64,000 bases of DNA from the NCBI GenBank assembly GCA_017506865.1, contig JAFCMP010000013.1, positions 1,240,001 through 1,304,000 of the forward strand. Direction: 5' to 3'. Source of the stretch: Tribonema minus. Lineage: Eukaryota > Sar > Xanthophyceae > Tribonematales > Tribonemataceae. The translations under genes were made by a program, and so were the position numbers. This document shows, piece after piece, positions 5,833-55,824 of the stretch; position 1 is the first letter of the stretch, and every line of letters starts with the position of its first letter. The notes under the pieces were generated by a model. The model saw nothing but the letters and a program-made list of their open reading frames with translations. It did not search any database and was not told the DNA's origin.

Positions 5833-5895
5833 CCGAGCGCGCGATTTACTCAGCTGCTGCGGGCGGAAACCCAATCCGAGCGCGCGATTTACTCA
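5833..5895 (-). repeat. Duplicated stop-codon region of the prolyl hydroxylase
   Basis: A 20-nt block containing the reverse complement of the stop (CCGAGCGCGCGATTTACTCA) occurs at 5833-5852 and again at 5876-5895, an offset of 43 bp. The copy nearer the coding region holds the real TAA. It is the 3'-end counterpart of the exon-echo arrays in the introns. Confidence 0.8.
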
Positions 5896-8800
5896 TCTGA
5901 CTCGTCGGACGACTCGAGGAGCGCTGCCACGGCGCTCGTCGCGGTGTGTGCCGCGTTGGCGAGCCACGCCGCGTGCGCCGCCGCCGTCGCGGCGTCGGTC
6001 GCACGCGCGGCGGCGCGCGCGAGCGCCGTGGCGGCGGCGCGCTGCGCGGCGCTGCGGCGCAGCGGCATCGGGCCGTTCCAGACGATGAGGTTCGCCGCCC
6101 ACTTCTCGCCCTGCGCGCGTAGTGGGGGTGGCGGTGGGGCGGAGATGTGTCAGAGCCGCATTCGTGGGTCTTTATGGCAGACTGACTAGTGACGTGGTGT
6201 GCCACAGAGATTACACAGGGATTACAGAACAGATGTGTGGTGGTGCGACAGCGCTCCACGCGATGAGGTTTGCCGCCCGCTTCTTGCCCTGACCGCGCGA
6301 TGTGGGTGAGTGAGTCATAGAGTGAGTCGTGTCTGAGTCGCATGGATGCGTACCGAGTGAAGACTGGCTAATGACGCGGTCTGTCATAGAGACCAAAGCA
6401 GGGCTCACAGATCAGATGTGTGTGGCGGCGTGGTATCGTGCGGCTCCGCGTGATGAGGTTCGCCGCCCACTTCTCGCCCTGCTCGCGCGATGTGGGTGAG
6501 TGAGTCATGGAAAGAGTCGTGTCTGAGGCGCATTGATGGGGCCCAGGTAGAGACTGGCTTTTGAGGCGTTCTGCCAAAGAGACCCAAACGGAGCTTACAG
6601 AACGGATATGTTTGTGGCGGCGCAGCATTGCGCGGCTCCACGTGGCAAGGGTCGCCGCCCGCTTCTCGCCCTGCGCGCGATATGTGGGTGGGTGAGTCAT
6701 GGAGTGAGTCGTGTCTGAGTCGCATGGATGTGTACCATGTAGGAGACTGGCTAATGAGGCAGTCTCCCATAGAGACCAAAGCAGGGCTTACAGGTCAGGT
6801 ACTTGAGGCGGCGCGGCATCGCGCGACTCCACGTGGCAAGGGTCGCCATCCGCTTCTCGCTGCCCCCCCTGCCCTCCGCCCCCCCCCCCTCCCTTCGCCG
6901 CCGCCGCTCCCCACAACCAAAATGCACGTTCTTAAACCGTGGGTAATTACTTGCGTTTCAAAAACAGCAAACGTTACTAAACCCCGACAGAAAGACATGG
7001 AAAACTCCCTACCATCCTGATCCAAATGGGCTCACCTTGAAAACGGGGCACGCGCCGTGCTCCGCCCCCGCGTCCGCGCCGCCGCGAGGCAGCTGCACAT
7101 AATCATACTTGATCCACAAATACTTTGAAGTAAACCTTTACCGGACCCTATCAAGACTCTTGTCACGTTTCTTATTCCTGAACTTTTTTTAATACAATCA
7201 AATGCGCTCGCCTTGAGAACGGGGCACGCGCTGTGCTCCGCGGCCGCGTCCGCGCCGCCGCACGACAGCTGGTTTTGATCATACGTAAACAACTGGTAAA
7301 CCCATGTCAAGTCTATTTTTCCTAGATTATGTGCATTTGAACGGGGCCTCGCCTTGAGAACGGGGCAGGCGCCGTGCTCCGCGGCCGCGTCCGCGCCGCC
7401 GCGCGGCAGCTGGTCGTAGAACAGCGCCGCCGCGCCGCGCCGCGGCGGCGCCGCGACGTGCCCCGCGCACGTCGTGGCCAGATCCATGCGCCACGACCCC
7501 GGCTCTATGCCGAGCTGCGCCAAAAGGGGGGCGCGCAGGGGGTCGGCGCTGAGCGCTGCTGCCGTGGCGGCGTCGGTGGCGGGGGCGTCGGGGGGGCGCG
7601 CGCTGCGGGACCAGACGGTCTCGCCGCCGAGCTCCACATCTGCGGAAGGAGGGGGGGGGGAGGGGAGGGAGGGGTCAAAGGGGGGAGGGGGGAGAGTTCA
7701 TGTTGCGGAGTGAATAGGGCTGTAAGGCCGGGGGGGGGGGGTGAAGTTGAGGTTGACTAGAAGCAGGGTAAAGTACGGCTGTAAGCCAAGGGGAGGGGGG
7801 GGGTGGGGTGATGTTGACGTTGACTAGAAGTAGCGTGAAGTGGGGCTGTAAGCCTCACGTAGTTGTTGGCCGCCAACTGTCTTGATTGTGGCAGCAGGGT
7901 CGTGCGTCTCGTTGACCAGCGGCCAAGCTCAGCATGGCTTTGCGGCAGAAGCCATTGCAAATACTATAGCGGCGACATCTCCATTTTTCTACTTCAAAAA
8001 TGGATGAATACGTCAAACGCACATGAGCCAAGCCCATGTAGCCATGTCATCATCGGAGCTGTTGCGCTTTAAACAATGTTTGCCTGCAAAGGAGGAGGGG
8101 GGGGGGTGGCGAACAACCCCTTTTTTATTACTTTTTTTGCTTCCCCAGCGCTGCTGAGGCAACGCTCCGTTCAACATGAGAAAAAAAGAGAACGGCAAAA
8201 CAGCGGTCGCTGCCGCCCTGACGCTGTCAATGACGTACATCATACCCCCTTGATGCCAGTCGGGCAAGGAGGTGCGCGATGGCACCTTGAATCGCCGCTA
8301 CACGTTTCAATGGCGTTGGCATTCCGAGCATATCCCATTTAACTCGGAGGTGCACAACTGTCAAGCTGCCCCCTCTCACCGTTGAAGTACACGACAACCG
8401 TGAAGTAGCGGCACGCTTTGCTGAAGCACCACACTGCCCGCTCTCACCGTTTACAAGTGTACTTGAGGACCGTAAATGAGCGATATGCTGCGCTGGCCCA
8501 CAACCATCGACACTTCTCATTGAAGTACATGAGGACCGTAAAGTAGTGGTTGCTGCCGCCCCCGGCGCTATCAACGATATGCCTACCCCGTTATCGAGAC
8601 ACACTGTAACACACACACTGTCAATACTGCCCGCTCTCACCGTTGAAGCACATGAGGACGGTGAAGTACCAGTTGCTGCCCCTGGCACTGTCAACGATAC
8701 AGCACCTTGATGATACCAGTCCGGCAAGGACGCACGATCAGCTACTTTGCTGATATACACCCATCACCACTGCCCGCTCTCACCGTTGAAGTACATGAGG

Positions 8801-11800
8801 ACGGTGAAGTAGCGGTTGCTGCCGCCCCTGGCGCTGTCAATGAGGTAGCCGGCAGTGTCGTAGCCGGTGTCCTCGTCAAATGTGGTTGTGTCGTCGTGCA
8901 GCGTGAAGCACTCCCCCGGCCAGTAGTGGAGCATCTCAAATGCTTCCTGAGAAAGCGGCGGAACTGAGTGAGAAACGGGGTCTCGCAGTAGATGAAGCTG
9001 CAGCTACAGTCATGTGCGGGTGAACAGCCTGACACAGGGGAGCAACTCAAACGCCTCCTGCAGAGGCGGCGGCGACATCGGGTGAGGTAGGGGGTGGCAC
9101 TTGGCAGCTGCAGCTGCAGTTACAGTTTTAAACGGGATTGAACGGCCTGAGCGAGTGGTCGGCGGAAAGCAGGCAAGCACGGTCACAGGTTTTTAGTTAC
9201 AGTTACAATTTCAGGGAGAAGTCGGCGCTGCAGCTGCCGAATTAGGCAAGCACGGGCGCTGCGCAGCATGCGCGCTCATCTGCTGCACCGTCAGACGTCG
9301 ATGTCAGACCATTTTTTTGCTCATGTCAGTTGTGTGTCGGACTAAGACAAGTAGCTGCCCAGCGCTCACCTCCTAGTCGCCCTTGACGCCGCGTATACGT
9401 CTACAGCATGCGCAGCAAGCTCATCTTCCCTGGAGTTCCGCTGCTTGTTCGGATGACTTGTTCTCTTACGCATTGTGTGCTTTTAGTGTTCTCCTATGGG
9501 GCGCAAAATCTTTGATGTACCCAAATTGAAACCTTTTTTTTGTGTTGATCAATAACTGAGGATTACATGAGAATGGGCAGCACTCACCGCCCAGATGTCC
9601 TTGTCGTCGCCGTACGCGGCCATGCGCAGCACTTTTGATTCTGATACTGGTTTTCTGCCGCTTGTGCGGATTCATTTGCTCACGCCTTCTAGACTACCAA
9701 GATGCATCAAGTCCACTACGGACTTGTGTGTTACCATGTACCAAGAATTTACTGTGAATTCATGCAAGAATCATGATTGCGCAGCGCTCAACGCCCAGTC
9801 GTCCTTGTCGTCGTCGAACGCGGCCGTGCACAGCATTCTGATAATCATATAATACCAAGATTATTATATTAGTTGTCTGCAGCTCGGGTACTTTTGCTCG
9901 TGCATTGTACTACCAAACAGAGGTAATGTTGTGTAAAATCAAACACTTAAATAAAGCTTCACAATTTTGGCAGTGCTCACCGCCCAGTCGTCCTTGTCGT
10001 CGCCGTACGCGGCCATGCGCAGCACTTTTAATATTTACAGTGATTGCTGCAGATGTACCAAGGATTCCCTGTGAATCCACTCAAAAAACAGTATGAATTG
10101 CGCAGCGCTCACCGCCCAGTCGTCCTTGTCGTCGCCGTACGCGGCCACGCGCAGCACATTTGATATCATAATGAATTACCGGGAACATTCATGTGAAAAT
10201 CATGAATGTAGTTGCGCAGCGCTCACCGCCCAGTCGTCCTTGTCGTCGCCGTACGCGGCCACGCGCAGCACGCGCTGCCGCATCGCCTTCACCGCAGGGG
10301 TCAACTGGCGGACAGACGAGCAGGCACGGGGGACTCTGATCAACGAGTCACACTCAGCACATGAGACTCTGATCAGCGAGTCAGAGTCATGAGTACCGCG
10401 TCGAGAGTGTCGCCTTCACCGCAGGGTCAACTGGCGGACACGCGGGCAAGCACGGGGGGACTCTGATCAGCGAGTCAGACTCAGCACAGGAGACTCTGAT
10501 CAGCAACCAGAGTCAGAAAACCGCTTTAAAAGCACCGTGGTTCGCCTTGAGCGCCAAGCAGCGGACAGACGAGCAGGCACGAGCAGGCACGGGGGGGTTC
10601 TGATCAGCGAATTGGAATCAGGGTTCCGCTTCTGGAGCACCGCGGTTCGCCTTGAGCGTCAAGCAGCGGACATGCAAGCAGGCACGGGGAGACTCTAATC
10701 AGCAAGTCCGAGTCCAGAGTGCTACTGCGAGAACACCGCCTTCGCCGCGGGGCACCGACTGGAGCACATGCGAGAAGGCGGGGGGACTCGGATGACTGAC
10801 TCAGACTCAAGAGCTCAAATCAGTGAGTCAGAGTCGGCACCAGGTCCGCGTTGAGGTTTGTACACAGCGACGAGGCTGGCGCATACGCGGGTGCCACGGA
10901 TTTACGTATTCAGTTTGCCCGCAACCACATGTTGCTAGTAGGTACACCGCATACACAGTAATGCGCACGTGTGCCTCAGTTGAGTGCGGCCTGAGCAGCC
11001 GGATGTCAGTGTGTCAGGCCCCGCTGAACCTTGAGCGCTGCAGCCGGCCTAATCCTAACCCTAACCCTGCCCTAATCCTAACCCTGGCCCTAGCCCTAGC
11101 CCTAATCCTGGCGTCACATGCGTCGTGTGCATCAACCTGAAGCCTGCGTGCAAGGCAGCAGTGCTCACGTCGAGCAGCCAGTCATCCGCCAGGCGCTTGC
11201 TTGTGCGCGGGCGTCCTGTCGCGCAAGTTGAACATGAGTAGTACCTCGGAGTATGATTTCTATTTAGAGAAAAAGTCACATTAGGTCACAGAAATACGAG
11301 GCAGCAGCGCTCGCCTGGGGCAGCCAGTCGTCCGTGCGGCGCTGCTTAACCACGGGCGTCCTGTCGCGCAACTTGGAGATGATTCATTCACCTTAGCAGT
11401 GTTCACATATGATTAACAATTAGGTTACTGTGAGGCAGCAGCGCTCGCCTGGCGCAGCCAGTCGTCCGTGAGGCGCTCCTTGTTCACGGGCGCCCTGTTG
11501 CGCAACCTGAAGATGAGTACTCTGATTCCATGCATGTGCCAATGCACCATGTCAGAGCAACTGCAATGCCATAACTTTGAACGAATGGATGCTTGAGACA
11601 TCGATCACTTTTGTCAAAATATGAGGCAGCAGCGCTCGCCTCGGGTAGCCAGTCATCCGCGCGGCGCTGCTTGTGCACGGGCGTCCTGTCGCGCAACGTG
11701 GAGATGGTCCATTAGCCTTCGCAGCGTTCACGTATGATGATATAATCAGGTTGAAGTGAAGCAGCAGCGCTCACCTGCGGCAGCCAGTCGTCCGCGAGGC

Positions 11801-14348
11801 GCTGCTTGTGCACGGGCGTCCTGTCGCGCGCGCCCTTGCCGCGCAGCACCGCATCTCCCTCGCGCAGCAGCTGGTCGACGTCGCCAGCGCTCAGCAGGTG
11901 GCGCACCGCAAACACGCGCGGCGCGATGCTGATGGTCTCCAGCTGGATCGTGCGCCCTGCGGTTGCGGCAGTTACATGAGCGGTTGCGGCAGTTACATGA
12001 GCGATTACATCAATTGCAGGTGCGTGCAGTTGCAGCAGTTACGTGAGCGGTTGCATCAGTCGTTCAGCAGGTGGCGCACCGCGAGCACGCGCGGCGCGAC
12101 GTTGATGTGGTCTCCAGCTGGACCGTGCGTCCTGCGGTTACAGCAGTTGCGGGAGCAATTACGCCAACTGAATGCATGACTGGATATGCCGTGTCGTAGG
12201 AAACCGGCAGGTGCCATTCCCTTGGTCGCGCCCTGCAGTTGCAGCAGTTTCTTGAGCGGTTGCATAAACTGAGAGCAGTTGCATCAACTGAACACATTGA
12301 GTGGATACGCCACAGGGAACCGACAGGTACCGAGGGAACGACGATGGGCGGCATTGAAGCACACAGAAAGCCTCAGAAATGTCAGGAAGGGCCAAATCCT
12401 GTAGACTTCTTTTTGAATAAAATCAAATGGCGCGCCTGGCTGGCGGTGCCGTCAAAAAACGTGCAGCATTCATTTACTAGCAGGCCCTGTGTGGCGGCAC
12501 CTGAAGGACTCACTTACTGACAACTCATCTGCTTATGACTCACTTACTCATGACTCACTTACTCACAAGTGGTGCTGACTCACCGTCCGGCGTCGGCACG
12601 TGCGGCAGCTCCACGACGTGCCCCAGCGCCTGCGGCGCGAACATGAACGGCCGGTGCGGCGGCACGAGCAGCAGCACCACGGCAGCAGCAGCAGCACCAC
12701 CATCAGCAGCAGCAGCAGCAGCCGCAGCAGCAGCGCCATCATCAATGCCCCCACCGCCGCTGCCACCGCCTCCGGCACCGACACTCGCAGCATCACCACC
12801 ACCAGCAGCAGCAGCAGCAGCACCATCACTATCACTGCCGCCGCCGCCGCCGCCACCACCAACATCACCGCCACCACCTTCAGCGCCCGTGGCAGCGTCC
12901 CCCTTCATCCTGTCAGCGATGCTCAACAGATCCGCGTACGTCAGCAGACGCGCGCCCGACTCGTGGTGCACGCGGCTCGGCACGCCGGGCCTGTCGTCGC
13001 CGTCAGGAATGTCATCGCAGTGCTCAGCGGCGGCAGCGGCGGAAGCGGCGGCGGCGGCGCAGCGCGCGCGTATCGCGGCGCCGCTGCTGCAGTCGAGGTG
13101 CGCGTTGAGCAGCGCCTCGAGGTCGCCGGAGCGGTTCGCTTGAAGTTCCGCCTGGGGGGGGGGGGTAGGGGGTGGAAGTTACTGCGTGAAGTGCGGTGTA
13201 GTGACGGTGCAGGGAGGGGTGGTGTGTTGGAAGGGGGTTAACAGTTACTGCAGCGAAGTGTGGTGTAGTGATGGTGCAGGCTAGGGGGGGGTGTCAGAAG
13301 GGGGTTTCACAGTTACTGCACCGATGCGTAACGCAGTGATGGCGCAAGGCTGGGGGAGCACGGTGGCAAGCGCAGCCGATAGAGTGCGGCAGTTTGCGGC
13401 GCGACTGAGTACAATCCCATGAGCTTTTCTGTGCCTCAGTGAGAATTGCTCAGAGAAGCGTTCACAGGCTGGCCACGGATAAACTGTATTGTACCGTTGC
13501 GTTAACAGCCTTCATGTCCATTTCTGGTGGTGGACAGCAACAGGCGTTGTCAGCAACAGCTCGCCACACTTGACAAACCATCATCGTCAGCGATGCCGGC
13601 TGCTTCAGTTCAATATTAAGAAGAAGCAACAAGAAGAGCTCAATGGTGGACGCAGCTCCTGTGTGGACACTGTCCAAAGTAAACTTGAAGTTTTGTGTAT
13701 GTCACTATGTCAGATGCTCAGCATCTTCAACTAACAGTTAAACTACTAGTTGAACATCACCGCTTATCACAATGTAGCTCACGCTGCCAGTTCAAATGCA
13801 GCGCACCCACGAGATGCAATGCACCCTTGAGGGCAATGTAGTCTCAGCCTAGCAACATGAGAGAGCCAAGAGATATTGCGTTTGCTAAGATCTACAATTA
13901 TGAATGAGGATGAATCATGTTTGGCTAAAGACTTTACGTCCAAAACTGCAAGTCGACAATTCACCTTGGTACTCTTGCGTAACACCGGCCCGGGTGTCGG
14001 CACGAGGGCACGTGCTGGGCTAACGCATTGCTGCTTTTGTTGTTGCGATTGCCAAACTACGACATCGGGTCGCAGCCAGTGCAAGAGCAGGACGCCGGCG
14101 TTTGCTGTCAAGTCCTCGCGTCAATCAGGTTGTGCCGCTCGCAGGTCAGCAAACACAAGGCTCACCTGGCTCAATTCAACGTGCACGCTGATACCGGCCT
14201 CGCCTCCATTGCATAGCAAGCGCACTCGTAGCTGCTGCTCCATGTCTGCGCAAAAGCTCTCTTGACCTGCGCTGCAACTATCTAGAGCTGCTTCGGCTGC
14301 CAGTGCTGCTGGTGCCAGCAAGCACAGCCTTGCAAGAAAGCAGCGCAT
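5889..14348 (-). CDS. Prolyl 4-hydroxylase (2OG-Fe(II) oxygenase), secretory pathway
   Basis: Eight exons join in phase to 597 aa: 14348-14195, 14104-13965, 13151-12584, 11956-11775, 10304-10227, 8946-8784, 7639-7353 and 6110-5889 (stop TAA). Residues 1-18 are a hydrophobic signal peptide (MRCFLARLCLLAPAALAA). A Gly/Ala-rich linker lies at about 190-260. The catalytic P4H domain covers about 270-560: VFAVRHLLSAGDVDQLL, the iron-binding HxD in FTLHDD (about H391, D393), NDVELGGETVW, distal His in AEHGACPVL (about H517), and the 2-oxoglutarate Lys in GEKWAANLIVWNGPM (about K527). Enzymes of this family hydroxylate prolines in secreted or wall proteins. Exon 7 uses a GC donor (GCGAGG). The exon 1 end is least certain: a stronger GTGAGC donor at 14166 gives a frame that does not reach exon 2. 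Acidic C-terminus ESSDESDE. Confidence 0.88.
6120..6880 (-). repeat. Acceptor-side exon echo, prolyl hydroxylase exon 8 (186-bp units)
   Basis: Four decayed copies of the start of the last exon (coding sense CAGGGCGAGAAGTGGGCGGC) lie in the upstream intron at about 6256-6295, 6446-6485, 6637-6672 and 6822-6865. The period is about 186 bp, so the array is a true tandem repeat that also carries intron sequence with a GTGAGTGAGTCAT block. The real exon starts at 6110. Confidence 0.85.
7024..7275 (-). repeat. Donor-side exon echo, prolyl hydroxylase exon 7
   Basis: The last 57 nt of exon 7 (coding LPRGGADAAAEHGACPVLK, with the distal iron His) recur at about 7262-7206 and 7086-7030. The annotated exon end (7353) and the first copy have GC donors (GCGAGG, GCGAGC). 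The farthest copy has a canonical GTGAGC donor. Each unit begins with CAGCTG, which supplies an AG in front of a 57-nt block divisible by three, so it could be spliced as an in-frame cassette. Whether it is used is unknown. Confidence 0.85.
8345..8770 (-). repeat. Donor-side exon echo, prolyl hydroxylase exon 6
   Basis: The end of exon 6 (coding sense TTCACCGTCCTCATGTACTT) with its GTGAGAGCGGGCAG donor flank recurs at about 8630-8695, 8510-8580, 8435-8480 and 8370-8430. Each copy is partly rearranged. The copies lie in the intron downstream of the true donor at 8783. Confidence 0.8.
9030..9085 (-). repeat. Acceptor-side exon echo, prolyl hydroxylase exon 6
   Basis: A single diverged copy of the exon 6 start (8928-8970) lies about 95 bp upstream in the coding sense. 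It keeps the AG acceptor and a GTTTGAG block. Confidence 0.65.
9585..10160 (-). repeat. Donor-side exon echo, prolyl hydroxylase exon 5
   Basis: Copies of the exon 5 end with its GTGAGCGC donor (coding VAAYGDDKDDWA) lie at about 10105-10160, 9975-10025, 9780-9835 and 9590-9635. Identity to the real exon (10227-10280) is high even in the farthest copy. Confidence 0.88.
10385..10800 (-). repeat. Acceptor-side exon echo, prolyl hydroxylase exon 5
   Basis: Four copies of the exon 5 start (coding sense CCAGTTGACCCTGCGGTGAA) and its upstream flank (CCCGTGCTTGCC) lie at about 10395-10450, 10538-10590, 10640-10690 and 10735-10790. They are interspersed with a CTCTGATCAGCGAGTCAGA block. Exon 5 therefore has echoes on both sides. 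Confidence 0.8.
11049..11112. repeat. Degenerate interstitial telomeric repeat (CCCTAA)
   Basis: About ten CCCTAA/CCCTAG-like units in tandem inside an intron of the prolyl hydroxylase gene. Confidence 0.85.
11150..11720 (-). repeat. Donor-side exon echo, prolyl hydroxylase exon 4
   Basis: Four copies of the exon 4 end (coding DRTPVHKQRLADDWLPQ plus GTGAGCGCTGCTGC) lie at about 11628-11700, 11435-11510, 11300-11370 and 11153-11235. The real exon end is 11775. Identity is high over about 65 bp, and the copies are separated by unrelated A+T-richer intron. Confidence 0.9.
12060..12260 (-). repeat. Acceptor-side exon echo, prolyl hydroxylase exon 4
   Basis: A copy of the first about 75 nt of exon 4 with its CCGCAG acceptor lies at 12060-12140. 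It has an internal indel relative to the real exon (11880-11956). A shorter flank copy follows at about 12230-12260. Confidence 0.8.
13155..13390 (-). repeat. Intronic tandem repeat before prolyl hydroxylase exon 3
   Basis: Three units of about 65 bp share GTTACTGC, GTGCGGTGTAGTGA and GGTGCAGG blocks and G-runs (C-runs in the coding sense) next to the exon 3 acceptor. They resemble the echo arrays but carry almost no exon sequence. Confidence 0.65.
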
Positions 14349-40682: not shown

Positions 40683-42224
40683 GCGCTACAATTGCCACAC
40701 CCAACGGTTACTTTTTTGGGCCCAGATCACACTTCAAGTTTGGTGCTTGAAGTTTTTCACGTTCAATGAGACTGTGTCCGAGACACTCCGAGACACTACG
40801 GCCGCTTGTCCCTCAGGTCATGGCTCCTCAGTCCAGGGCGCTCAGTCGAGCAGCATCCACGTCACGGATCAAGCGCGTGACAGAGAGGAGGAGGCGCCTG
40901 CTTCGCATTGCTGGGATGCTGCTTTGCATCGACGCCATGGAACATAGGAAGAGGAGCTCTGGCGAACCCTATGGCATCTACGATCTGCGTGAACACCCAC
41001 TCGTTGCAGCTGCTTTCGTCTTTCTACTGCGACGCCGCAAGCTGGGTCGAGAAGCCGCATGCCTCAGCGACTGGGAGCGTGGCGATTTGCTCGAGGTTAC
41101 CTCAAGGCTGGTGCTGCCCTGAATAGCGTGACTGGCGCAGATACAACTGGGGTGCTTTACAAATCGCCATGTTGATTGCCCGCTGGCAATTTAGATCTAG
41201 TGACGCGTGGTGCCAGGCAGCAAAGCTGCCATTTGTCTGGGCTGTGACCCGGGGGCGTGACAGCTCCTGTACTCGCGCAGCCCTCAAAGTGATAGCCGGT
41301 GTGAGATGTAGAGCTTCGACCAGTATTTAACTTGTTTCAGTGGCCCATGCTTGATGTAATATTTGTGCAGCTGCGCAACATGCTGGCGCCTACCAGCATC
41401 TGTTTTTGCCCGAAGTCCCAGCAGACCGCGCTTCAATGTACATGTCAAATGCACAGTTGTGCAAGTTCTCTTCTGCACACGTGATGATGCTGCATCCGTT
41501 TCTCTTTGGCAACAGACACGGTGTCACCATGTTGATGCACGATGATGTCGGAAGACGTTGACATGCATGTGCATATGCTCATGTGCGTTTTCATATGCAG
41601 GGGCTACTGTGTGTGCATGATATTGCTGCGCTCGTATCTATCAGGCCGCAGACAAACTGTTGTCGTGCAAGTGCACTATGGCACTCTGAGCTTACTTAGT
41701 GGCTACCCAGATGCTCGTGGCCTTGCACGTTGCGCCCACCACGCAGCCCATGGTTGACAATTGGCCGCAAAGGGGGCGAATGCCGGTTTCTGGCTGAAAA
41801 TTGAGATGTATGAAGGATCCTGCTGGGGACAAGTTGTGTTGGTGTTGGGGGTGCTTGTTGAGAGCAAGATGAAAGGGGCACATGTGCTCAAATGCAGCGG
41901 CATCTGCCTCCTGCTGCTGCAGCAGCAGTGGCGTGGCGGGCAAACAACTGTTGTTCACATCTTGCCTCGCTGCTAGCCGGCTGACACTTGCAAAAACAAG
42001 CTGTCCAGATAAGCCCTTCTGGGCAAGCAGAACTGCGCTGTGCAAGCAGTGCACCACACACAACCAGATCCATGCAAAAGTGGTGTTCCTAGAGCAGGGC
42101 AGTGACACTCCAACTTCCTGAGGATCTTCAACTAGGTGGAATGGGTATGTATGCGCTGCACTTTTTTAAGTCAAGTTGCATTGCAATTGAGTGCAGCAGC
42201 AAAGTTGCAGATCCGACAGCAGAG
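40683..42224. promoter_or_regulatory. Shared divergent promoter region
   Basis: This 1.54-kb gap separates the start codons of the RhoGAP gene (minus) and the EGY gene (plus), so both promoters and 5' UTRs should lie here. No convincing TATA box or other named element was identified. A 118-codon plus-strand frame at 40766-41122 has no recognisable motif and is probably chance. Confidence 0.5.
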
Positions 42225-45200: not shown

Positions 45201-48200
45201 TGACGACGCGCAGCCGCCGCTGACCGAGGAATTCACCCCCTCGTGAATGCGTGCTCGGGGAGGAGACGTCGCCAGACGTGATGCGTCGCTCGCCGCCGTT
45301 CCATCGCGCGGAGCCGTGTTGCTGCTGCAGAATTTAGCACACGTGGCAGTTCAGCAAGAGACGCCGTGCGTTCTCGCCTTGTAAGCACCAGGACCTGCAA
45401 GGCACCACGACCTGCGGTGTGTCAGCAGGCGCTGCTGCTGCCGCTGCTGCGCTCGCGTCGCCTCCATGCTGGCGCGCCGCTCTGCTGCCGCAGCAGCTGC
45501 TGCTGCTGCTGCCGCCGCTGCCGCAGCAGCTGCTGCTGCTGCTGTAACTCTGTGCTGTCATTTACCGAATCGTGCTGTCCCTTCATCGCAACGGCACAGC
45601 TGCAACAGCTGCGGCGGCAGCGAAAGCGTTTTTCATCTCATCACCCATGTTTGTGCTGTCCACTGCCACCCCGTGCAGCCAAGCCAGCGGGAGCTGGTAG
45701 AGAAGTGGGTGGAGGCGACAATGGCCAATCGCAACGGCACGGTGGGGGGGGGCGTGCCCTTTGTGCTGGGGGCGCCGGGCAATGGCACGGCGACAACGAT
45801 ACCCATTCAGCTGGGGGGGGAGGCCGGGGGGGGGCTGGTTCTGCTGCCGCTGTGGTGAGTGCCTACCAAGAAATGTGCGATTGCGTGTACAAATCAGTGA
45901 GGCAGCTGGGCGGGGGGGGGGGGGGGGCTAGTGTTGCTGCCGCTGTGGCGAGTGCCTCCCGTATGTGCAATTTGCGTGTATGAGTGGATGAGGCACCTGG
46001 CGGGGGGGGGGGGGCAGGCTGGTTCTGCTGCCGCTGTGGTGAAGTGTCCCCCATAACATGTGCCAGTTGCGTGCGCGAGTGGGTGAGGCAGCTGGGGGGG
46101 GGCGGCGGGAGGGGCTGCTGCCGCTGTGGTGAGTGCCTCCCGTAACATGTGCCATTCGCGTGTATGGAGGCACCTGGGCGGGGGGGGCTAGTGCTGCCGG
46201 CCGCCGTGGTGAGTGCCTCCCGGGGCAAGTGCCGTTTGCGTGAACGCGTATGAAACAACGCCGAGAGGCTCGAGGGCATTCAGGTGGCACGGCGCTCCAG
46301 TGGCGCGTGAGGCAGTGCTCAACGTGGAGGACAGCGCGCTCAGTCGCGTGTACCAGGAAGGTGGGGATGGGGTTGGGGCGCGGCCGGCTGTGCTGTCACC
46401 AGCGACCCCCCCTCCCCTCGTGCGCGCGCGCGGCACTGCCGCTGGCGCCGCGGTGAAGCAGCCTGTCCTGCTCGCGCCTAGGGTTAGGGTCAGGGTTAAG
46501 GTTAGGGTTACGGTTCAGCGCGTGCGCACTGCCATTGGCGCCGCGGTGAGGCTAACTTTCCTGCTCGAGGTTTTTGAGAGAAACACTGAAAGACCCGGAA
46601 ATATGGAGAGCGCAGGAACTACCTGAAAGCCTGGAACTTGCGCGTATGCTGTGACCCTACACTGCATGTTTGTTGTTCACGTTGCATCACTGACAGCACA
46701 TCAGACCTATGAGAGCCTGCTGTTCCGACATGTATACCCCAGTATGCCGGTGGAAGGAGGAGGGGAGAGGGCACCTCTCGTGGAGCAGTTGCAGCAGCGC
46801 CAGCAGAGTTCGCCGGCGACGCAAAACGACAACAACAACGTCATGCGTCAAGGCATACGATGCAGCCGCGCTCTCTCAGCCGCCTCCAGGCCTGCACACG
46901 CCAACGGTAGTTCCTCAGCTGCGTTTACTATCGTTGGGGTTGTTGGAGTACAGCCTGGAGTAGGATGTGGACTGCTTGAAGTACAACTTCAAGTTCACAG
47001 CCACCAAGTAACCGCTGAACTCTTTCTCCGTGCCACAGGGTGCCGCCGACGCTGCTGCGCTACGTGAGCGGCGCGCCCGCGATTGTCGACGAGGACGTGG
47101 AGGTGCTGCAGAAACAGGTACTTCAACTTCACATGCTGCAGCAGGTACTTTCAACTTGACATCAGCGTCGCGCGCGTGCGCTGCTTACATAGCGCTGCTG
47201 TCCCATGGCCATGACTGACGAGCTGGTGCAGAAGCAGGCGCAGGTACTTCAACGCGTGTGCTGCTAGCGTCGCTGATCCATAACTGACGCCGCACATCAG
47301 TGCTCGTCACCTCATATTCCTGAGAGCGGAAGACCATGAGCGCAGGGTGGCTTTCAGCAATGGGATCGTCGGGCAATCTGTTGAGGTCTTCTCCAAATTC
47401 AGTGCTTGCGGTGTGTGCATGTTGTCAGCAGTTCTATGACGTGTCAGCAGGAGGACCTGGCATTGTCAACTTCAACTGCTTGCAGCACCGAGCTTGAGTC
47501 GTGAAAAGCTGCACGTCCTTCTCTCGCATACTGTTACGTCGTGCGGCCATGTCTGCTGCATCTTCAGTTTGGCACGACTGCCGTTGAACTTCAACAACAA
47601 TAAAAATTTCCGGTTCGGTTAGCATCTCAAAACAACATTTGCCGCCCTGTCGCGGCCGCATGTGTCTGGCATGGACACCTTCAACGTGACGCAAACAGAG
47701 CGCAGCCCTCTGCGACATACGCTGGTGTTGAATGACAACAAACACGTACACGCTCGTTTTGGTTGCTGCGACAACTGCCATCCTGCGCCTGCTGCGCCCA
47801 CACTTTTAGCTGGAACGTCAAGGAACGTGATACAAGTATTGCCAATTGCGGTATTGATGGAAATGCCGCTTGGTGCCCGCTGCGGCCACAGGTTTTTGGC
47901 ATGGACGCCTTCTACGTCACGCAGACACCTGCGACAAGTGACCTTCGCCGCCTGCTGCTCGCGCACTTCCTCAGCATAATGTCCAACTTCAAGGAACATC
48001 GACCATGATACCACAAGTGTTGCGCACTTCAGTTTTCATGGAAACGCCGCTTGGCACCCCTCTGCTGCTGCAGGTTTTCGGCATGGACACGTTCTACGTG
48101 ACACAGACGGAGCGCAGCCCTCTGGCGGTGCTCTTCCGCGGCAACCTGCGCAAGCAGGACAGCGAGGCGGTGTTCGCCAAGGTGCAGGAGCGGCTGCAGG

Positions 48201-51200
48201 TGCGCACGCTGTCTCCGCTGTGTGTTCATTCCCATTGTTTTCTTACCTGACTGCTATTCATTGATCGATCATTGTCACAGCGTTGATGATCGCCGTCAAC
48301 TGCAAGTAACGCAAGAAGTAGTGGATCGTTTGTACGGCGACATGCACAAGCAGGACAGCGAGGCGGTGTTTGCCAAGGTGCAGGAGCGGCTGCAGGTGCG
48401 CGCGCATTGCCGAGCGATGGGCTTGCTGTGTTGAACTTCGTTTTCTTGCATGACTGCTACTGGTTGATCAGCAAGTGCGCACGTGTCTCTTGCGTTACCG
48501 TACTGGATCAGTACGGTTATCATTGTCATGCGCGCGCATGCGCGCAGGTGCAGCCGCAGCTCGCACGAGCGCGTGCAGCCATGCAATTGCACCACGAGCG
48601 CTGCGTCTTAAGGGTATCACTGGCACAGTTATCAATGGGCTGTTGAAGTTGCAAGGCCCTCCTTTTCGAAGTCGTTGTAGCCGCCCTGCTGCATCGGTGC
48701 GCAGCCCCAGGTTCGGCGCGCTCCCCCTTGGCATGCTGCCCCATACCCCTGTCACTCTCGTGCGAGAGGGCGGACCTTTACCGGCTCGCTGCCACTGCGG
48801 AGGGGCGATCACAGCCCGCCCATGCGCTCTCTCAGTGCGCAGCTGTCGATCGTGCCCCCCCCCCCCCCCCCCGTCTCCCCCCCGTCTCCCTTGGACCGAC
48901 GCGCACGGGACGCGGAGCATGGTAATGCCTTCGCTCCCACACCGTTGAAGTGGCCGCAGCACATGTATCTGGAGCACGCAATCCTGGCTCCGCTTTTGAT
49001 AAGGGTAGCGTTGGAGTCAAATTAGGGAGTGCAAGTGCGGAACGTCACCTGCGAACAACCCCCCCCCCCCCCCCCTCACCATCACCCCCTAATGCCGTGC
49101 AGGCGCAGCCCGGGGGCCTCGGCGAGCGCGTGCAGCTGCTCCTCATGCCGGACTTCACGCCGCCGTCGATGGACGACATGGACGCGGGCGAGGACGCGCA
49201 GGCCAGGTACGACTTCAACTTTGACTTCACAGTACCTGCAATGTGTGTACTTCAAGTTTAAGTTGACCAAGTTGGAGCTGACCAACCCCCGTGCAGCCCC
49301 GGAGGACAGTACTGTCTGTGTGTGAGTGTGTGTGTGTGTGTGTGTTGCCACGTCTAATGCGCTCGAACGCGGGAGCTGCGTAGACCGACGCGGCACTCCG
49401 CATCTGGCCCGGCAGGCAGCACGAGCGTGACCTATGGAACTCCTCTTGGCGCATACGCGTCATGTGCGTCGCAGTCGCTGCATCGCCTCCCCCCGGTTGG
49501 CCGCGCATGTTTGTTCTCCAGCAGCGTCGCAGCACGCCGCTCGCAGCAGCCATGGCAGCGCTCGACACCTGTGTCATCATTGCTCAGCTCCTGCCGCGGT
49601 CTGATCCGCCTGCTTCGACAGCAATGCGCACCGCATTTCTGAAGCACACCTCAGCCTTCGTTGTGCGCGCCAGGCTTCCGTCCTCAGCAGCAGCAGCGCA
49701 GCTGCAAGAGCAGCAGCGCACCAGTGCCGCATAGCGTAGCGCTGGCCAGCTGACTAGCAGCCTTTGTCGTGCTCTGCGCCTGACCCACCCGCCACGGCAG
49801 CGGCGCGCACCGCGCTTCGGAGGGTTAGGGTTAGGGTTAGGGTCAGGGTTAAACCCAACCCTAACCTCAACTCTGAACCTGCCCTTTTTCTCGTGCCACA
49901 CCAGTTAGGCAACGCCGCGTGCAGCGGCGGACACCGCAATTTGGACGCACTTTTGTAGGGTTGCACAAAAACGTATTCGGCCACACAAATTCGGCGTATT
50001 TGGGGCACATTAAGCAACCAGGAACACGTTTTGAGCGAACCGCAACAGGAGAACACGCTGCGCAAAGGGCGCGTATTTGTGGGGCATCTGTTGACTCTTC
50101 TCAATCCCGAGCTTACAGTCCACCACAAGAGGGCAGCACTTGAAGTCAGAAATACACTTCAATACGCTTTTGTGCAGCCCTACCTGTGTTTTCTTTCATG
50201 TCACAATGGCCGGGGCGATGCGCACGGCGCCGGCAGTCGATCGCGTGCGAGCAGCGCTTATGTACCTTCCCCTTGGCTGATTGCTGCTGCCCGCAGGCCC
50301 ATCTTCCTCGCCATCAGCACGCAGGCGCAGCCCAAGCAGCCGACGGCGTTCACGTACGTGTTCAGCCTCGCGACGCTGGTGGCGTCCGCCTTCACGGCGT
50401 TCGCCTACGCACTGGGCACTTTCGGTGCGTACGCATGAAAGTTCTAGTAGTTGCTTCTGCTTCCCTACGCGTTGGGCTCTTTCAGTGCGTGCAAAGGGTA
50501 CGTGTTCCTGCTTCCCTATATTATATGCGCTGGCCACTTCCGGTGCGTGCATAGGATACTCGTTCCTTCTTCCCTACGCGCTGGGCACTTTCGGTGTGTA
50601 CAAACGATGCTCATTCCTGTCTCGAGTCGCTTTATGGCGGCACCAATGATGCACACACTGACATCGAAGAACTGCGCCTGTCTCGTTGCGGAGCGATGAA
50701 GGGACCCGCTGATGTGCAGACAGTCGGTACTTCGCAGTTGAAGTACAGCGTTGACGCGATGATACCGGCTGCTGGTGGCATCGGCGCTCGCTGCCTTCCG
50801 CCACGCATTGAGCACTGGCGTCGCGAGCTCCCGGCAGATTCAATCAGTGCAAATGCCACGTGTTTCTTTACTATCATGCTGCTACATGTACGTCACGGCA
50901 GCTGGTCCTTCAGACATTGTGAGGCCTTCAACATGGCCCATTCTGACAGCCGTCGCCTCCACTGCGTGCTCACCGCTCGCCAGCACTCTCAGTGCGTATA
51001 GCACCTGGGGGACATTGCTGAGCGCTGTCAGAAATTCTGGCCGCCTAACAGGTGCCGGTGCGACGTTGTCTCATGTTGTTCAACCGCGAGTCACCCCCAG
51101 CACCCACTCCCTGCTTCTACCGGAGGGTTTAGTACAGTAGTACAAGGTTCATGCAGTATGCATGCATACACGAGCCTATGAACACCTCCACCCACAGTCG

Positions 51201-53898
51201 CGATGCCCTCGTCATCAGCCGCCGCCGCCGGTGCGTCTCCCTCATTCCGCTGCCTTGGACATCAGCACTCTTGCCTTTCAGTTCGTTCGACAACTACAAC
51301 TCACACGCGAGCACATCTTCTTCTGTTCTTGCGCCGCCGCGCAGCGCTCAACACGGAGTTCTTCGCCAAGGTCAACGACGGCGACCTCTCAGTCGCCTCG
51401 CAGGCGCTGCCGGTTGCGGCCGGCATCCTGGGGCTGCAGCTGGTACACGAGCTCGCACACCGGCTAGCGGCGCTCGCGTCCGGCAAGAAGAACCTGCTGG
51501 GGCCCCCCGTCTTCATCCCCTCTCTCCAGGTGCGTTTCGGTGGGGGTGAGCATCGCGTTTTCGCGCGTGCAGAGTGCTATGGGGCGACGCTGTATCATCT
51601 GTTGAAGTTCACAATGTTGAAGTACACGAGCTCGCCCACTGGCTAGCTGCGCTAGCGTCCGACAAGAAGAACCTGCTGGGACCCCCTGTCTTCATCCCCT
51701 CTCTCCAGGTGCGTTTGGGGGGGGGGGCGGTGGCTGTTGAAGTTCAATGTTGAAGTTCAATTCCGTACACGAGCTCGCGCACCGGCTAGCGGCGCTCGTG
51801 TTCGGCAAGCAGAATCTGCTGGGACCCCCTATGTTCATCCCCTTCCTCCTGGTGCGTTCGAGGGGTGGGGGGCGTGTGAGCATTGAGCTTTCGTGCGCCC
51901 AGAGCTCTACGTGGTGATGCTGTATCATCTGTTGAAGTTCACAATGTTGAAGTGCATGAGCTCGCGCACCGGCTAGCGATGCTGACGTCTGGCAAGAAGA
52001 ACCTGCTGGGACCCCCCGTCTTCAGCCCCTCTCTGCAGGTGCATTCGGGGGGGGGGGGGGGGGGGGGGGGGGGGTGAGCATCGTGTTTTCGTGCGCGCAG
52101 AGCGCTTCGGGGTGACGCTGTATCATCTGTCGAAGTTCACAATGTTGAAGTACACGAGCTCGCGCACTGGCTAGCGGCGCTGACGTCTAGCAAGAAGAAC
52201 CTGCTGGGGACCCCCCGTCTTCATCCCCTCTCTCCAGGTGCGTTCCGGGGGGGGGGGGGGGGGGCGTGTGAACATGGCGTTTTCGCGCGCGCAAAGAGCG
52301 CTACGCTGTAACATCTGCTGAAGGTCAATGTGGAAGTTCAAATCCGCATTTGTGCACAGCGCCGAATTAACCAGACGCAAGGGCTTTGCTCCAGGCGCGA
52401 TTCGCAGCATGCTGCGCGATTCACGGTGGTCGCTTTGCAGTGCGGTACATGCTGAGTACACTAGCCGTACACGGCTGCACTCGAGACCGGTCCCCACGCA
52501 GGCTGCAACCGCATCGTCCTCGCACGCGCCTGTCTCGATCCGCTGGCAGCTGCCTGCGCTCAACGGCTCAAGTGTATGCTGCTACGAAGAGCGTAACGAA
52601 TGAGTAGTCTGTCCCATTGCTGACGGCGAAACACTGTCGCCCCCCCCCCCCCACCCCTGCCCTCCCCTTGTCCCTGACAGGTGGGCACCTTTGGCACCAT
52701 CACGCCATTCACGACCTTCCCCCGGGACCGCAAGCAGGCATTTGACGTCAGCGTTGCGGGGCCCGCGCTCGGCGCCGTGGTCTCTCTGGGGGCCCTAATA
52801 GGTGCGTACTAGCTTCCAGACTGCCTGGTGCCGTGATTCATGATACTTCACTGCCAGCCAAACTAGATTCAGCATGCCATTGCCATGTCAAATGCTCCAC
52901 GTGCCGTGGTCTCTCTGGGGGCCCTAATAGGTTCTCAACTCTAAGGCGGCGGCTCCCACCCGATCACCGGCCGTGTTGTATGTGGTTGGTGAGGCAGGGA
53001 CATTGTCGATGGTCGTTTTTGCATTGCGCGTCCCATTCAAAAAGCTGGTGATCTCGACGCACTTGCTCATTAATCCATGAATTTCATCCATCCGTTTCAA
53101 TCATTACAGCAGTGTCCATTTTTTCATGGATTTCACCCATTCATTTCATTCAACCACAGCGGGGCTGCTGCTCATGGGGGGGGGGGGGAGGGGGGGGGTC
53201 GACCGCGGAGGCGCTGGCGGCATTTATTCATGCATTTCATCCATTCGTTTCATTTGATTCAGGGGGCTGCTGCTCGCGGGGTGGGCGACCGCGGACGCGG
53301 TGGCAGTGTTCACTTATTCATGAATTTCATCCATCCCTTTTATTCAATTCAGGGGGGCTGCTGCTCACTGGGGGGGCGACCACGGACGCGCTGGCAGCTT
53401 TTCCCGTCGTCCCCGCCGCGCTCTTCCACAGCTCGGCGATCATCGGGACGATCACGAGCATCGCGCTGCCGCAGGCGATGCTGCAGGTGCGTCACAGTTG
53501 AAGTGGACCTTGATCGATCCTGTGTGTAATGAAAGCTTTCGGGGCTCTGCTCTGGTGCAGTGTGGTTGCGCCATCGCAGCTGCGGGGGCGCGCTGCCCCT
53601 GTCACCATTGATGCACTCTGCCTCCGCCAAGGGCCGCCCATGTCAGGCCTCTTTCTTTGTCAGCGGCCGTTCCATTCTCATTCGGCATGGCGCAGGCGTC
53701 GGCATGGCGCAGGCGGTGCAACTTGTTCGACGCTGGGGTAGGGCGACACGGCACAGGAAGAATGCGTGCCCGTGCGCCGTCCTGTTCAGGCCCTGCTTCA
53801 TCGCCATGACCAGCGGCGTGAGCGGCATCGACTGCTTTGCATTTCGGTTGGGGGTTCAGGGGGTCCTGAGCACCGCTGAGTGCTGCCTGATCCCCCAT

Positions 53899-53929
<31 letters not shown>

Positions 53930-55824
53930 GCGCAGGCCCTGTCACTCCCGCACCAATGCTGCAGGTGCGTCACCTTTTAAAGGCGACTCACAGTCGAAGT
54001 TGATGCCATTCTGAGCGCTGTGACGTCCATGCACCACAAGTGGTACGCTCTGACGCGCCGCCGCCGCCGTCAGATATAATTTCAGTATGCTGAGCACTGC
54101 TGAGCCCTGTGCGACGTCCGCGCCGCCGCCGCCGCAGGCCCTGTCCACCCCCGTCCCCCTGCACCCCCTGGCCGTGATCGGCTTCACGGGGGTCATCGTC
54201 AACGCGCTCAACCTCATGCCGGTGGGGCGGCTCGATGGGGGCCGCCTCGCCGCCGCGGGGTTCGGGCGCCGCACCGCCGCCGTGCTGGGCACGCTCACGC
54301 TGCTGCTGCAGGTGCGTACTGAGCAGTCGGTGGCTGCACTTTCCCGCGCCACGTTGTGTGCGCTTCGAATAGAAAGGGGAGTTGCCGCGTGCGGAATGTA
54401 GTGGCAAGGCCGTCTTGCGCGTTCTCGGGCACCCTCGAGCTGCTGCCGCAGGTACTGCTGCTGCAGGTACGTACGGCGCAGTCTGTGGCGCGGTGCCGCT
54501 GCAGTGTTCCGTGCTCTCGCTCGCGTCAAACCGGCATCGACTTGTCGTCAGTGCGTGGTGAGCGACGTTTGGCTGGTGCCGCGTACGGTGTACCACTACA
54601 CAGTAGTTTTCGCCAGGGGGCTGGAGACTACAAGATTGGGTACGGCGGTGTGCATACGCTGGCCAGACTCTCCCTGAGCCAGGTGGCCGGTTGCCTCAGA
54701 TGCGCCCCGCCGTTGCACTCTGCTGTGTTGCCGTGCGCAGGCGGCCAGCGCCATCTTCAACAACTACAGCCTGCAGCTGTTCTGGGGCCTGGTCGTGATC
54801 ATCTTCCAAAGGGGTCAGGACCTGCCGGCACTAGACGAGGTATGTACTTCTATGTACATTGTGGTGCTGTACTGTACTGTACTGTACTGTGCTGTCCGGT
54901 ACGTGTCAATGGTGCTGCACATGTTTCCCAGTTTTCAAGAGTGCAGGTAGGTTTGTAGTTCTGCACATTGCAGTCGGTTATGCTGTCGTGATCATCTTGC
55001 AAGGGGGTCAGGACGTGGCGGCACTGGACGAGGTATGTTTTCATTGGTGGCCGTGCTGTACTGTGTACTGTACTGTGCTGTAGTGTCTAGTAGATGCGTC
55101 GATTGTGAACACGTTCTCCTGTCGATTGTGCTGAACACATGATCCTGCATTCACCAGTGTAGGTTTTGACGTCTGCCCCTTGTGGTCGTGCTGTACAGCA
55201 CATGTGCCAGGCCTGCCCGGCGCTTGGCGTCGCGAGCTGCTCACGTGTGATACGAAGGCATGTATGTCGATCGTGGCCGTACGGTTTGGCGCGTGTGTGC
55301 ATGCCGCTGCGCATTGAAATACGCCACCATGCTTGCTGTGCGAGCTCTTTGCTGTGAACAAAGCACATGCGCATGGAGACGCTTTCAAGGTGTTCACAAA
55401 GACGCATGCAGATTCTGGCTTGCAAGTCCATGAACACCCACCATCTGGGCTTTTCCGCGCCCTGAGCGAGAATCGACAAATAGTACATGCGCACGCGGAC
55501 GAGGGGGGGGGAGATGCCATTTGCCGACGTCTACGTCTAAAAGTGATCGTCTATGCCCATTGCTCCACTTTCGGGCTTTCACGACACACATTTGCATGCT
55601 AGTAGCAAGCTGGGCCCATCATCTGGGCTTTCGTGCGCCCTTAGCGAGAATTCACAACAAATACACGCACGCATCATATGCAGGGCAAGACTGACCCTGC
55701 GCACCACCGTCCTCTCGGCCGCCACCGCGCGCAGGTGTCGGAGGTCGACGAGGGGAGAAACACGGTGCTGCTCGTGCTGCTCGCGTTTGCGCTGTTCACG
55801 CTGGTGCCTTTCCCCTCGCTGTAA
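42225..55824 (+). CDS. EGY: EGY-type plastid M50 (site-2-protease-like) metalloprotease
   Basis: Exons: 42225-42544, 43972-44216, 44861-44970, 45679-45854, 46284-46360, 46697-(end unresolved), 47039-47117, 48074-48199, 49103-49206, 50297-50424, 51345-51529, 52681-52801, 53353-53486, 54135-54311, 54741-54839 and 55735-55824 (TAA). All junctions agree in phase except exon 6 to 7. The N-terminus is a signal peptide ending near ATDAVHG then FLPRPS, as in complex-plastid preproteins, followed by a charged helix (AEKLRLEAERERLLMER). Family marks: FGMDTFYVT, VLFRGNLR, zinc-binding HELAH (exon 11), GPPVFIPSLQ, FGTITPFTTFPRDRKQAFDVSVAGP (in pieces), the second metal motif NALNLMPVGRLDGGRL (exon 14) and C-terminal EVDEGRN plus a last membrane segment. 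EGY proteases act in thylakoid or plastid membranes. Intact active-site motifs argue for an active enzyme. Confidence 0.9.
43655..43960 (+). repeat. Acceptor-side echo, EGY exon 2
   Basis: Three copies of the exon 2 start (GGGAGAAGATAGACCGCAAA) lie at about 43692, 43757 and 43915, upstream of the real start at 43972. The second copy carries about 70 nt of exon (to CGGCTGTGGCG) with its GTGCAG acceptor. C-runs precede each copy. Confidence 0.92.
44300..44575 (+). repeat. Donor-side echo, EGY exon 2
   Basis: Copies of the exon 2 end (coding ALSQGIMRVVETK) lie at about 44310-44355, 44432-44478 and 44530-44570. The first keeps GGGTGAGTCGG, identical in type to the real donor at 44217. The later ones have lost GT. 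Confidence 0.92.
45905..46215 (+). repeat. Donor-side echo, EGY exon 4, with G-runs
   Basis: Four copies of the exon 4 end plus donor (GCTGCCGCTGTGGTGAGTGC, coding LLPLW) lie at about 45933, 46024, 46117 and 46190. Each is preceded by an 8-15-nt G-run. The real donor is at 45855. Copies 3 and 4 keep GTGAGT. Confidence 0.92.
46479..46516. repeat. Interstitial telomeric repeat (TTAGGG)
   Basis: Five TTAGGG-like units in the EGY intron after exon 5. A short duplicated exon-like block (CACTGCCGCTGGCGCCGCGGTGA, in pieces) lies on each side. Confidence 0.85.
47125..47260 (+). repeat. Donor-side echo, EGY exon 7
   Basis: The exon 7 end (CTGCAGAAACAG then GTACTTCAACTT) recurs as CTGCAGCAGGTACTTTCAAC at about 47139 and GTGCAGAAGCAGGCGCAGGT at about 47227. 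All keep a GTACTT-type donor. Confidence 0.8.
47655..47945 (+). repeat. Acceptor-side echo, EGY exon 8
   Basis: Two copies of the exon 8 start (coding FGMDTFYVTQTERSPL) lie at about 47665-47725 and 47890-47935, upstream of the real start at 48074. One keeps VTQTERSPL in frame. The other keeps the CAGGTTTTTGGCATGGAC acceptor junction. Confidence 0.9.
48335..48405 (+). repeat. Donor-side echo, EGY exon 8
   Basis: One near-perfect copy of the exon 8 end (coding KQDSEAVFAKVQERLQ then GTGCGCGC) lies at 48348-48400. The real copy is at 48152-48207. The copy is in frame. Confidence 0.93.
49317..49346. repeat. GT dinucleotide run
   Basis: TGTGTGTGAGTG followed by an uninterrupted GT run in an EGY intron. 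Confidence 0.95.
49821..49868. repeat. Head-to-head telomeric repeat junction
   Basis: Four TTAGGG units (one TCAGGG) are followed within a few bases by AAACCCAACCCTAACC in the opposite sense. The array lies in an EGY intron. Confidence 0.92.
50455..50612 (+). repeat. Donor-side echo, EGY exon 10
   Basis: Three copies of the exon 10 end (TACGCACTGGGCACTTTCGG then TGCGTAC) lie at about 50465-50500, 50515-50550 and 50573-50605. Each keeps a GTGCGTG or GTGTGTA donor-like flank. The real exon ends at 50424. Confidence 0.9.
51600..52245 (+). repeat. Tandem copies of the HExxH active-site exon end (EGY exon 11)
   Basis: Four extra copies of the last 87 nt of exon 11 (coding VHELAHRLAALASGKKNLLG and PPVFIPSLQ) lie at about 51630-51708, 51767-51850, 51950-52038 and 52158-52238. 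All keep HELAH. Copies 1 and 3 are open to the CAG before GTGCRT. Copy 2 reads to CTG|GTGCGT. Copy 4 is frameshifted by one inserted base after LLG. Each copy is preceded by a GTTGAAGTTCA block and followed by a G-run of up to about 27. The original lies at 51443-51529. Confidence 0.95.
52895..52935 (+). repeat. Donor-side echo, EGY exon 12
   Basis: A single perfect copy of the exon 12 end (GTGGTCTCTCTGGGGGCCCT then AATAGGT) lies about 130 bp downstream of the real donor at 52802. Confidence 0.93.
53080..53345 (+). repeat. Acceptor-side echo, EGY exon 13
   Basis: Copies of the exon 13 start (GGGGGCTGCTGCTCRCGGGG, then GCGACCGCGGACGCGSTGGC) lie at about 53160-53225 and 53265-53310, before the real start at 53353. 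The flank TTCATCCATYCRTTTCATT is copied with each unit. Confidence 0.92.
53885..54010 (+). repeat. Hybrid echo joining EGY exon 14 acceptor and exon 13 donor
   Basis: The segment reads a CCG-rich tract, then GCAGGCCCTGTCACTCCCGC (the acceptor and start of exon 14), then CCAATGCTGCAGGTGCGTCAC (in pieces; the end and donor of exon 13). It looks like a small exon flanked by its own splice sites, made from the two neighbouring exon edges. Confidence 0.8.
54415..54500 (+). repeat. Donor-side echo, EGY exon 14
   Basis: GGCACCCTCGAGCTGCTGCC followed by GCAGGTACTGCTGCTGCAGG and a TACG flank copies the exon 14 end (coding GTLTLLLQ) and its intron start, including a GCGCAGTCTGTGGC block. Confidence 0.85.
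54955..55085 (+). repeat. Donor-side echo, EGY exon 15
   Basis: A copy of the exon 15 end (coding VVIILQGGQDVAALDE) followed by GTATGTTTTCATTG lies at 54978-55050. The real copy, VVIIFQRGQDLPALDE then GTATGTACTTC, is at 54791-54850. The CTGTACTGTACTG intron flank is also copied. The copy is in frame. Confidence 0.93.

Follow-up and report, generated by a model that had tools for sequence, protein, structure and literature searches.

Edges of exons in the xanthophyte Tribonema minus are repeated, together with their splice sites, inside the introns that adjoin them. These copies, here called echoes, are direct repeats that lie at the exon edge and on the side to which that edge belongs, and they occur widely in the genome and decay neutrally. 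They were first noticed in a 64-kb stretch of DNA, the window (positions 1,240,001 to 1,304,000 of contig JAFCMP010000013.1, assembly GCA_017506865.1), out of a genome of 158 Mb in 554 contigs, and all results given here come from this one genome. Within the window, echoes are seen in a prolyl 4-hydroxylase-like (P4H) gene, a RhoGAP gene, an M50/EGY-like gene and one further gene near 44 kb. An earlier note on the window had described copies of this kind at nearly every junction; its observation is real and reaches beyond the window, although it is only partly confirmed. The best explanation is probably that short segments are frequently duplicated locally and in direct orientation, with one of the two copies frozen because it is exonic.

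Two sets of genes bear on the junctions. In the window, exon boundaries were read by eye from reading frame, GT/AG signals and protein sense, and echoes were measured at 15 junctions that were picked because they looked echoed, a biased sample in which 35 echoes, when aligned with the exon edge, proved 83-100% identical to it. The independent sample comprises CCT/Cpn60 chaperonin genes elsewhere in the genome, with exons anchored by Pfam matches and 31 introns modelled; several junctions were predicted by score and may be wrong by a few bases. In the chaperonin genes an echo was called when the score of a 45-nt exon edge exceeded the 99% point of scores from 1,620 comparisons between mismatched exons and introns. 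By this measure 18 of 62 chaperonin junctions carry an echo, against 1 of 62 for reverse-complement queries, and echoes are present in 15 of the 31 introns; a second count, of 22 echoed junctions in 68, includes six that were added because they looked echoed. The extension to nearly every junction was thus overstated, the proportion being about three in ten, and higher in longer introns.

The side on which the copies lie is as first described. For the 18 chaperonin exons with both introns modelled, the exon edge matches its own intron in 13 of 36 cases and the intron on the opposite side in 0 of 36, while the middles of the same exons match either intron in 1 of 28; echoes are two-sided for three of these exons and one-sided for seven. 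The match rate of 30-nt exon windows is 9/31 at donor and acceptor junctions alike and falls to 0-7% at most points beyond 60 nt into the exon, apart from about three higher points (among them 3/24 on the donor side and 2/19 on the acceptor side), and this fall with depth fits duplication units of limited length. Windows inside introns repeat at 0.04-0.33 according to position, a range that overlaps the 0.29 found at the junction. Local repetition is therefore a property of introns and not of junctions alone, with junction enrichment clear in identity but not in number: edges are favoured over exon interiors, as had been supposed, but compared with the rest of the intron they are not clearly commoner, only higher in identity.

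The preference for direct orientation is strong wherever we looked. Direct repeat pairs outnumber inverted ones by 98 to 3 in the window (spacing below 3 kb), by 149 to 0 at ten chaperonin loci, and by 161 to 9 (within 1.5 kb) in a sample of 20 stretches of 10 kb, taken at a single fixed position on each of 20 contigs; a comparison of three sets gave 161:9, 149:0 and 104:2. At least one direct pair is present in 18 of the 20 fixed-position stretches. The only one of these examined for genes, L008, has 19 repeat pairs; its plus-strand frames were examined, and it carries a CNNM-type gene and exon-like high-identity blocks. In the high-identity blocks of the 20 unannotated stretches, donor motifs are weakly enriched (7/35, against a background of 0.10) and acceptor motifs show no excess (2/35). 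A search with exon edges of one plasmid collection gave no match.

The copies appear from their sequence to behave, for the most part, as neutral debris. Across the 74 echoes whose frame is known, divergence from the exon is 0.069 at codon position 1, 0.049 at position 2 and 0.141 at position 3, the excess at position 3 being of the size that silent changes in the exon itself would produce. The exon part holds 15 indels, 13 of which shift the frame; an earlier count over 66 echoes, which included ambiguous frames and some intron, had 30 of 31 indels that were not a multiple of three. Among echoes that reach the junction, GT or AG is kept in 64 of 75, made up of 23/30 echoes from the window and 41/45 from the chaperonin loci. 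Two sites each decaying at about 0.05-0.07 would give about 87-90%, and since the observed retention is no higher than free decay there is no sign of upkeep for use. These frameshifts, with the rates at codon positions 1 and 2, rule out selection of echoes as coding sequence. Reading frame, which the copies had been said often to keep, accordingly fails as a constraint, and the suggestion that they supply cassette exons is unsupported: the copies align as edges with one junction, not as whole exons with an acceptor, a donor and an open frame.

How might such copies arise? We propose that the genome makes local, direct-orientation duplicates of short segments, with units of about 60-350 bp. Duplications inside exons would mostly be removed by selection, whereas those inside introns would be tolerated, and so would one across an exon edge as long as the outer splice site stays in use. 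An exon fragment with its splice site would then be stranded inside the intron and decay neutrally there, whereas the true exon would stay fixed. Repeated events would give arrays and longer introns. Because the exon copy is held fixed, exon-edge copies would be recognisable for longer than copies of intron sequence alone.

Several observations support such duplication across splice junctions, and with it a role in intron growth. In the modelled chaperonin introns local direct repeats were detected over 28% of 23,010 bases, and introns that bear echoes exceed the others in length (median 936 versus 481 nt, p=0.003; p-values here are optimistic, since echoes of the same array are not independent). 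Direct copies of exon edge, splice site and adjoining intron together are found, most clearly in the M50/EGY-like gene (plus strand), where the exon with last base 51529 is followed by four tandem units of about 140-200 nt (span 51443..52345), the exon part and the spacer being about equally conserved. Contiguous head-to-tail units are seen in this EGY-like array and in three near-perfect pairs elsewhere, in unannotated stretches, with offsets of 92, 291 and 331 bp; of the 112 pairs with 86-98% identity, however, 91 have a length/offset ratio below 0.5, the repeat covering less than half of the spacing. The sequence separating the copies was at first considered unrelated, but intron-side flanks are homologous in 49 of 70 cases (z>3), a proportion raised wherever a further echo lies within the flank, and at 7 of 12 single-echo junctions; some blocks do lack any flank homology.

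A second group of results is harder to reconcile with simple duplication and decay. In 12 arrays (a thirteenth, the L033 acceptor array, was left out), blocks were compared with the spacers between them. In 11 of the 12, echo-echo identity is 0.78-0.91 for blocks and 0.66-0.77 for spacers, a gap of 0.06-0.21; shuffled spacers give 0.63-0.69, and in these 11 arrays the real spacers lie 0 to 0.09 above them. The exception is the EGY-like array (blocks 0.85, spacer 0.84), and in the L029 array at 3711 spacers are about as young as blocks. Over 62 echoes, flanks at +16 to +45 are about 0.70-0.72 identical beside echoes with a mean exon identity of 97%, the same as beside echoes of 86%, random flanks being about 0.57-0.60. 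Individual cases are starker. In array n of the P4H gene (minus strand, exon last base 10227, span 9588..10302), with four echoes at 9588-9632, 9792-9835, 9981-10025 and 10113-10157 and an older fifth copy that turned up with a longer query, the nearest echo has 45 nt identical to the exon and 15 nt identical to the intron, and this block, 60/60 identical, adjoins a spacer no better than random; its flank z of 22.8 is ascribed to the next echo lying in the flank. Likewise in the M50/EGY-like gene (plus strand), the exon with last base 52801 is echoed by a block (52903-52930, span 52774..52932) in which all 28 exon bases agree and GT comes next, the 28/28 match lying beside a random-like spacer with a flank z of -0.6. 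Further, the modelled introns contain 13 pairs with at least 86% identity, every one of which includes an exon edge and none of which is intron-only, whereas 20 of the 48 pairs of lower identity lie wholly within intron sequence; high identity confined to exon edges is not readily given by decay at half rate. Finally, direct pairs are denser in the delimited gene blocks of the window than in the rest of it (3.15 versus 0.32 per kb), only a lead as the rest is unannotated.

These points were weighed by simulating tandem duplication with a frozen exon under neutrality, with the same detection step and four settings. Three settings populated the youngest identity class and predicted flanks of 0.77-0.93 there; none fitted the flanks and the identity distribution (16, 28 and 18 echoes in the observed classes) together. 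Neutral decay with a uniform spread of ages predicts flanks of 0.91-0.93 at +16 to +45 in the youngest class, compared with the 0.70-0.72 observed, and was rejected. Two old-heavy settings came nearer, at 0.77-0.82, yet gave too few well-kept blocks (chi-square p < 1e-6, again optimistic), and in the oldest setting the youngest class was nearly empty. Much of the difference between blocks and spacers can be put down to detection bias together with an age distribution weighted towards old echoes, and the simple model could hold for most echoes. Hypermutable spacers were also considered as an explanation, and are countered by the EGY-like array and the L029 array at 3711, where spacers age at about the rate of blocks.

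What, then, keeps some blocks young? One possibility, which we hold tentatively, is that short-tract gene conversion, or else template switching, rewrites old tandem repeats at exon edges again and again with the true exon as source. The exon would be the master, since changes in the reverse direction are selected against, and blocks would stay young while spacers age. The decoupled ages of blocks and flanks argue for this, as do the better-kept blocks in 11 of 12 arrays, the misfit of the neutral simulations and the presence of an exon edge in every high-identity pair of the modelled introns. So do the outer endpoints, which are common within array n (25, 25, 26, 25, 23) and in array p of the P4H gene (15 four times), yet few derived variants are shared: among the 55 echoes of 13 arrays, 203 variants occur in a single echo, 31 are common to some and 13 to all. 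With variants mostly private, each echo looks as if it came straight from the exon, the exon being the hub of a star, and this speaks for the local duplication model too. Blocks also resemble each other more than their linked flanks do in 11 of the 12 arrays, as in concerted evolution, a pattern not specific to gene conversion. On the other side, spacers are about as young as blocks in two arrays, as described above, outer endpoints differ in L029 at 3712 and L027 at 5998, and incompatible-site pairs, which recombination among echoes should make more numerous, are not above simulation, at 9 against a simulated mean of 17.7 (11 arrays, with few informative sites and low power). The evidence overall for repeated copying from the exon is moderate, and such copying is less likely than not. 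It is conceivable, if rather doubtful, that exon edges serve as standing templates from which nearby intronic copies are continually refreshed, giving concerted evolution of exon-bounded blocks while spacers turn over freely. The earlier note had suggested a mechanism that targets splice junctions or R-loops. Most of the pattern does not call for one, as the same kind of repeat occurs inside introns and exon edges stand out in part because the exon copy cannot decay; a residue of very similar blocks beside old-looking spacers is left.

An unlikely alternative is that exon-edge fragments are copied into intron breaks during end joining, as spaced templated insertions, so that spacers were never co-duplicated. 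The many pairs of 86-98% identity that are shorter than half their spacing would follow, as would the block at 52903-52930 with no flank homology. The homologous intron-side flanks at 7 of 12 single-echo junctions do not, and the common outer endpoints in arrays n and p would have to be coincidence. Snap-back joining should moreover yield inverted copies, which are rare. Still less probable is that selection maintains the echoes for a function, whether as alternative exons, as decoy splice sites or for regulatory pairing: retention of GT/AG in most copies and the better conservation of blocks than of spacers might suggest it, but the rates at codon positions 1 and 2 and the frameshifting indels indicate no coding constraint, GT/AG retention is not above free decay of two sites, and in array p GC replaces GT in 3 of 4 echoes. 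Assembly artefact from repeated exon ends can be dismissed almost outright, because most echoes depart from the exon at several per cent of positions and carry private changes, and such repeats are present on many contigs.

The P4H gene occupies about 6-12 kb of the window on the minus strand. Its exons, joined by hand without the echoes, give a 2OG-Fe(II) oxygenase domain and matches to prolyl 4-hydroxylases, whereas unspliced frames of the region match no Pfam family. Besides array n, the exon with last base 8784 has donor-side echoes at 8188-8233, 8380-8411, 8520-8577 and 8641-8697 (span 8188..8784; identity 0.85-0.91), and array p, at the exon with last base 11775, has four, at 11174-11224, 11315-11369, 11454-11503 and 11644-11694 (span 11153..11860), the change of donor GT to GC lying within 11315-11694 on the minus strand.

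The RhoGAP gene, also on the minus strand at about 29-38 kb, has its RhoGAP match in an exon other than those described here; its extent, and the inclusion of the next three exons, are probable. Exon 31744-31653 has an acceptor-side echo at 31884-31925 and a donor-side echo at 31471-31527 (span 31471..31925), and exon 32964-32703 similarly has one at 33141-33199 and one at 32510-32569 (span 32510..33199). The exon with last base 34831, presumably MyTH4-like though with no Pfam match, is followed by three donor-side echoes at 34208-34247, 34365-34399 and 34613-34647 (span 34208..34831). Upstream of the minus-strand exon with first base 37942 lies array m, with five acceptor-side echoes within 38063-38803, or six with a longer query (span 37879..38806).

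On the plus strand, the gene near 44 kb has an exon with last base 44216 and downstream copies at 44306-44353, with GT kept, and 44414-44475, with GT lost (span 44149..44475). The M50/EGY-like gene, at about 48-55 kb on the same strand, has an M50 match below the Pfam cut-off; from its motifs we take it to be of the EGY type. In addition to the two junctions described above, its exon with last base 48199 has one donor-side echo at 48336-48395 (span 48139..48405) and that with last base 54839 has one at 54985-55032 (span 54792..55081). Acceptor-side echoes at 53193-53225 and 53262-53306 belong to the plus-strand exon with first base 53353 (span 53193..53397), with AG absent at the called position in both. 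Further arrays lie outside the 15 measured junctions, for example at 6053-6860, 7023-7414, 37203-37816 and 45808-46242. Rfam at gathering scores gave no match within the window.

Other repeats in the window deserve mention. An inverted repeat of 1.4 kb (57618-58989 and 59596-60950, 83% identity) is possibly a mobile element or an inverted duplication, and a 187-nt direct repeat of 97% identity (16448-16634 and 17859-18044, 1.4 kb apart) possibly represents the terminal repeats of a small element. Telomere-type tracts resembling TTAGGG/CCCTAA were seen by eye in or near introns at about 11050-11110, 33670-33700, 38940-39060, 46480-46510 and 49820-49870, and would fit the patching of breaks. A short motif, approximately TTGAAGT/ACTTCAA, recurs by eye, uncounted, in many window introns, for example at 51605-51625, 51930-51950 and 52130-52150. 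Elsewhere in the genome, recent paralogues were tried as a clock and rejected: the LHC genes L037 and L038 match mainly over a coding stretch, and L039 and L040 (G000:C70 and G000:C489) are identical over 1,266 bases, which an 11.8-kb contig shares with a larger one, so that some haplotype or duplicate contigs exist. One genomic LHC protein has fucoxanthin chlorophyll a/c-binding chains as its best PDB matches, and another matches the LHCI chains of PDB entry 9vfj first and then ACPI/CAC chains. Chains of these kinds belong to diatoms and cryptophytes, and the plastid is probably of the red lineage.

Intron growth is usually inferred from single rare events, whereas here one genome offers many events of differing apparent age. 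Codon positions 1 and 2 date the decay of an echo, position 3 adding the silent changes of the exon, and this built-in clock makes the rates of local duplication, of neutral decay and of possible exon-to-intron copying measurable from one assembly. Echoes also look coding and often bear splice sites, a warning for gene finders. If blocks are indeed rewritten from the exon, introns would grow by copying their own exons, through repair or replication events located at splice junctions or close to them.

How do echoes compare with known systems? Tandem or mutually exclusive exon duplication likewise gives direct-orientation exon repeats within a gene, but there the unit is an entire exon that retains its acceptor, its donor and an uninterrupted frame, whereas echoes comprise tens of bases beside one junction. 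The introner-like invasive elements of Amoebophrya, also repeats in protist introns, are reportedly dispersed families; echoes instead copy the adjoining exon of their own gene, and the one 80-nt P4H echo used as a genome probe gave five matches, all in its own array. No description of abundant exon-edge copies in introns was found in a literature search that covered open-access papers and few subscription ones, and no preprints, weak evidence of absence. Polyubiquitin-type tandem-repeat genes, as outlined in PMC10809524, have dual-specific splice sites through which coding units are spliced in variable numbers; tandem arrays with repeated splice-like sites are common to both, but here many copies are frameshifted exon edges. 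In the model of tandem duplication of AGGT, as described in PMC4974935, a duplicated exonic AGGT creates a new intron, and the likeness lies in duplicated exon sequence bearing splice signals, the difference being that the segment here spans an existing junction. Closest is the potato gene that forms the case in PMC4974935, in which a tandem duplication over an intron-exon boundary turned an exonic segment intronic and created a new intron. As in Tribonema, the boundary is crossed and splice signals come from the parental boundary. The potato case, so far as that account describes it, is a single event making a new intron, whereas in Tribonema many junctions have 1-8 copies each within introns, so that the two differ in scale, in persistence and in the array form that the copies take.

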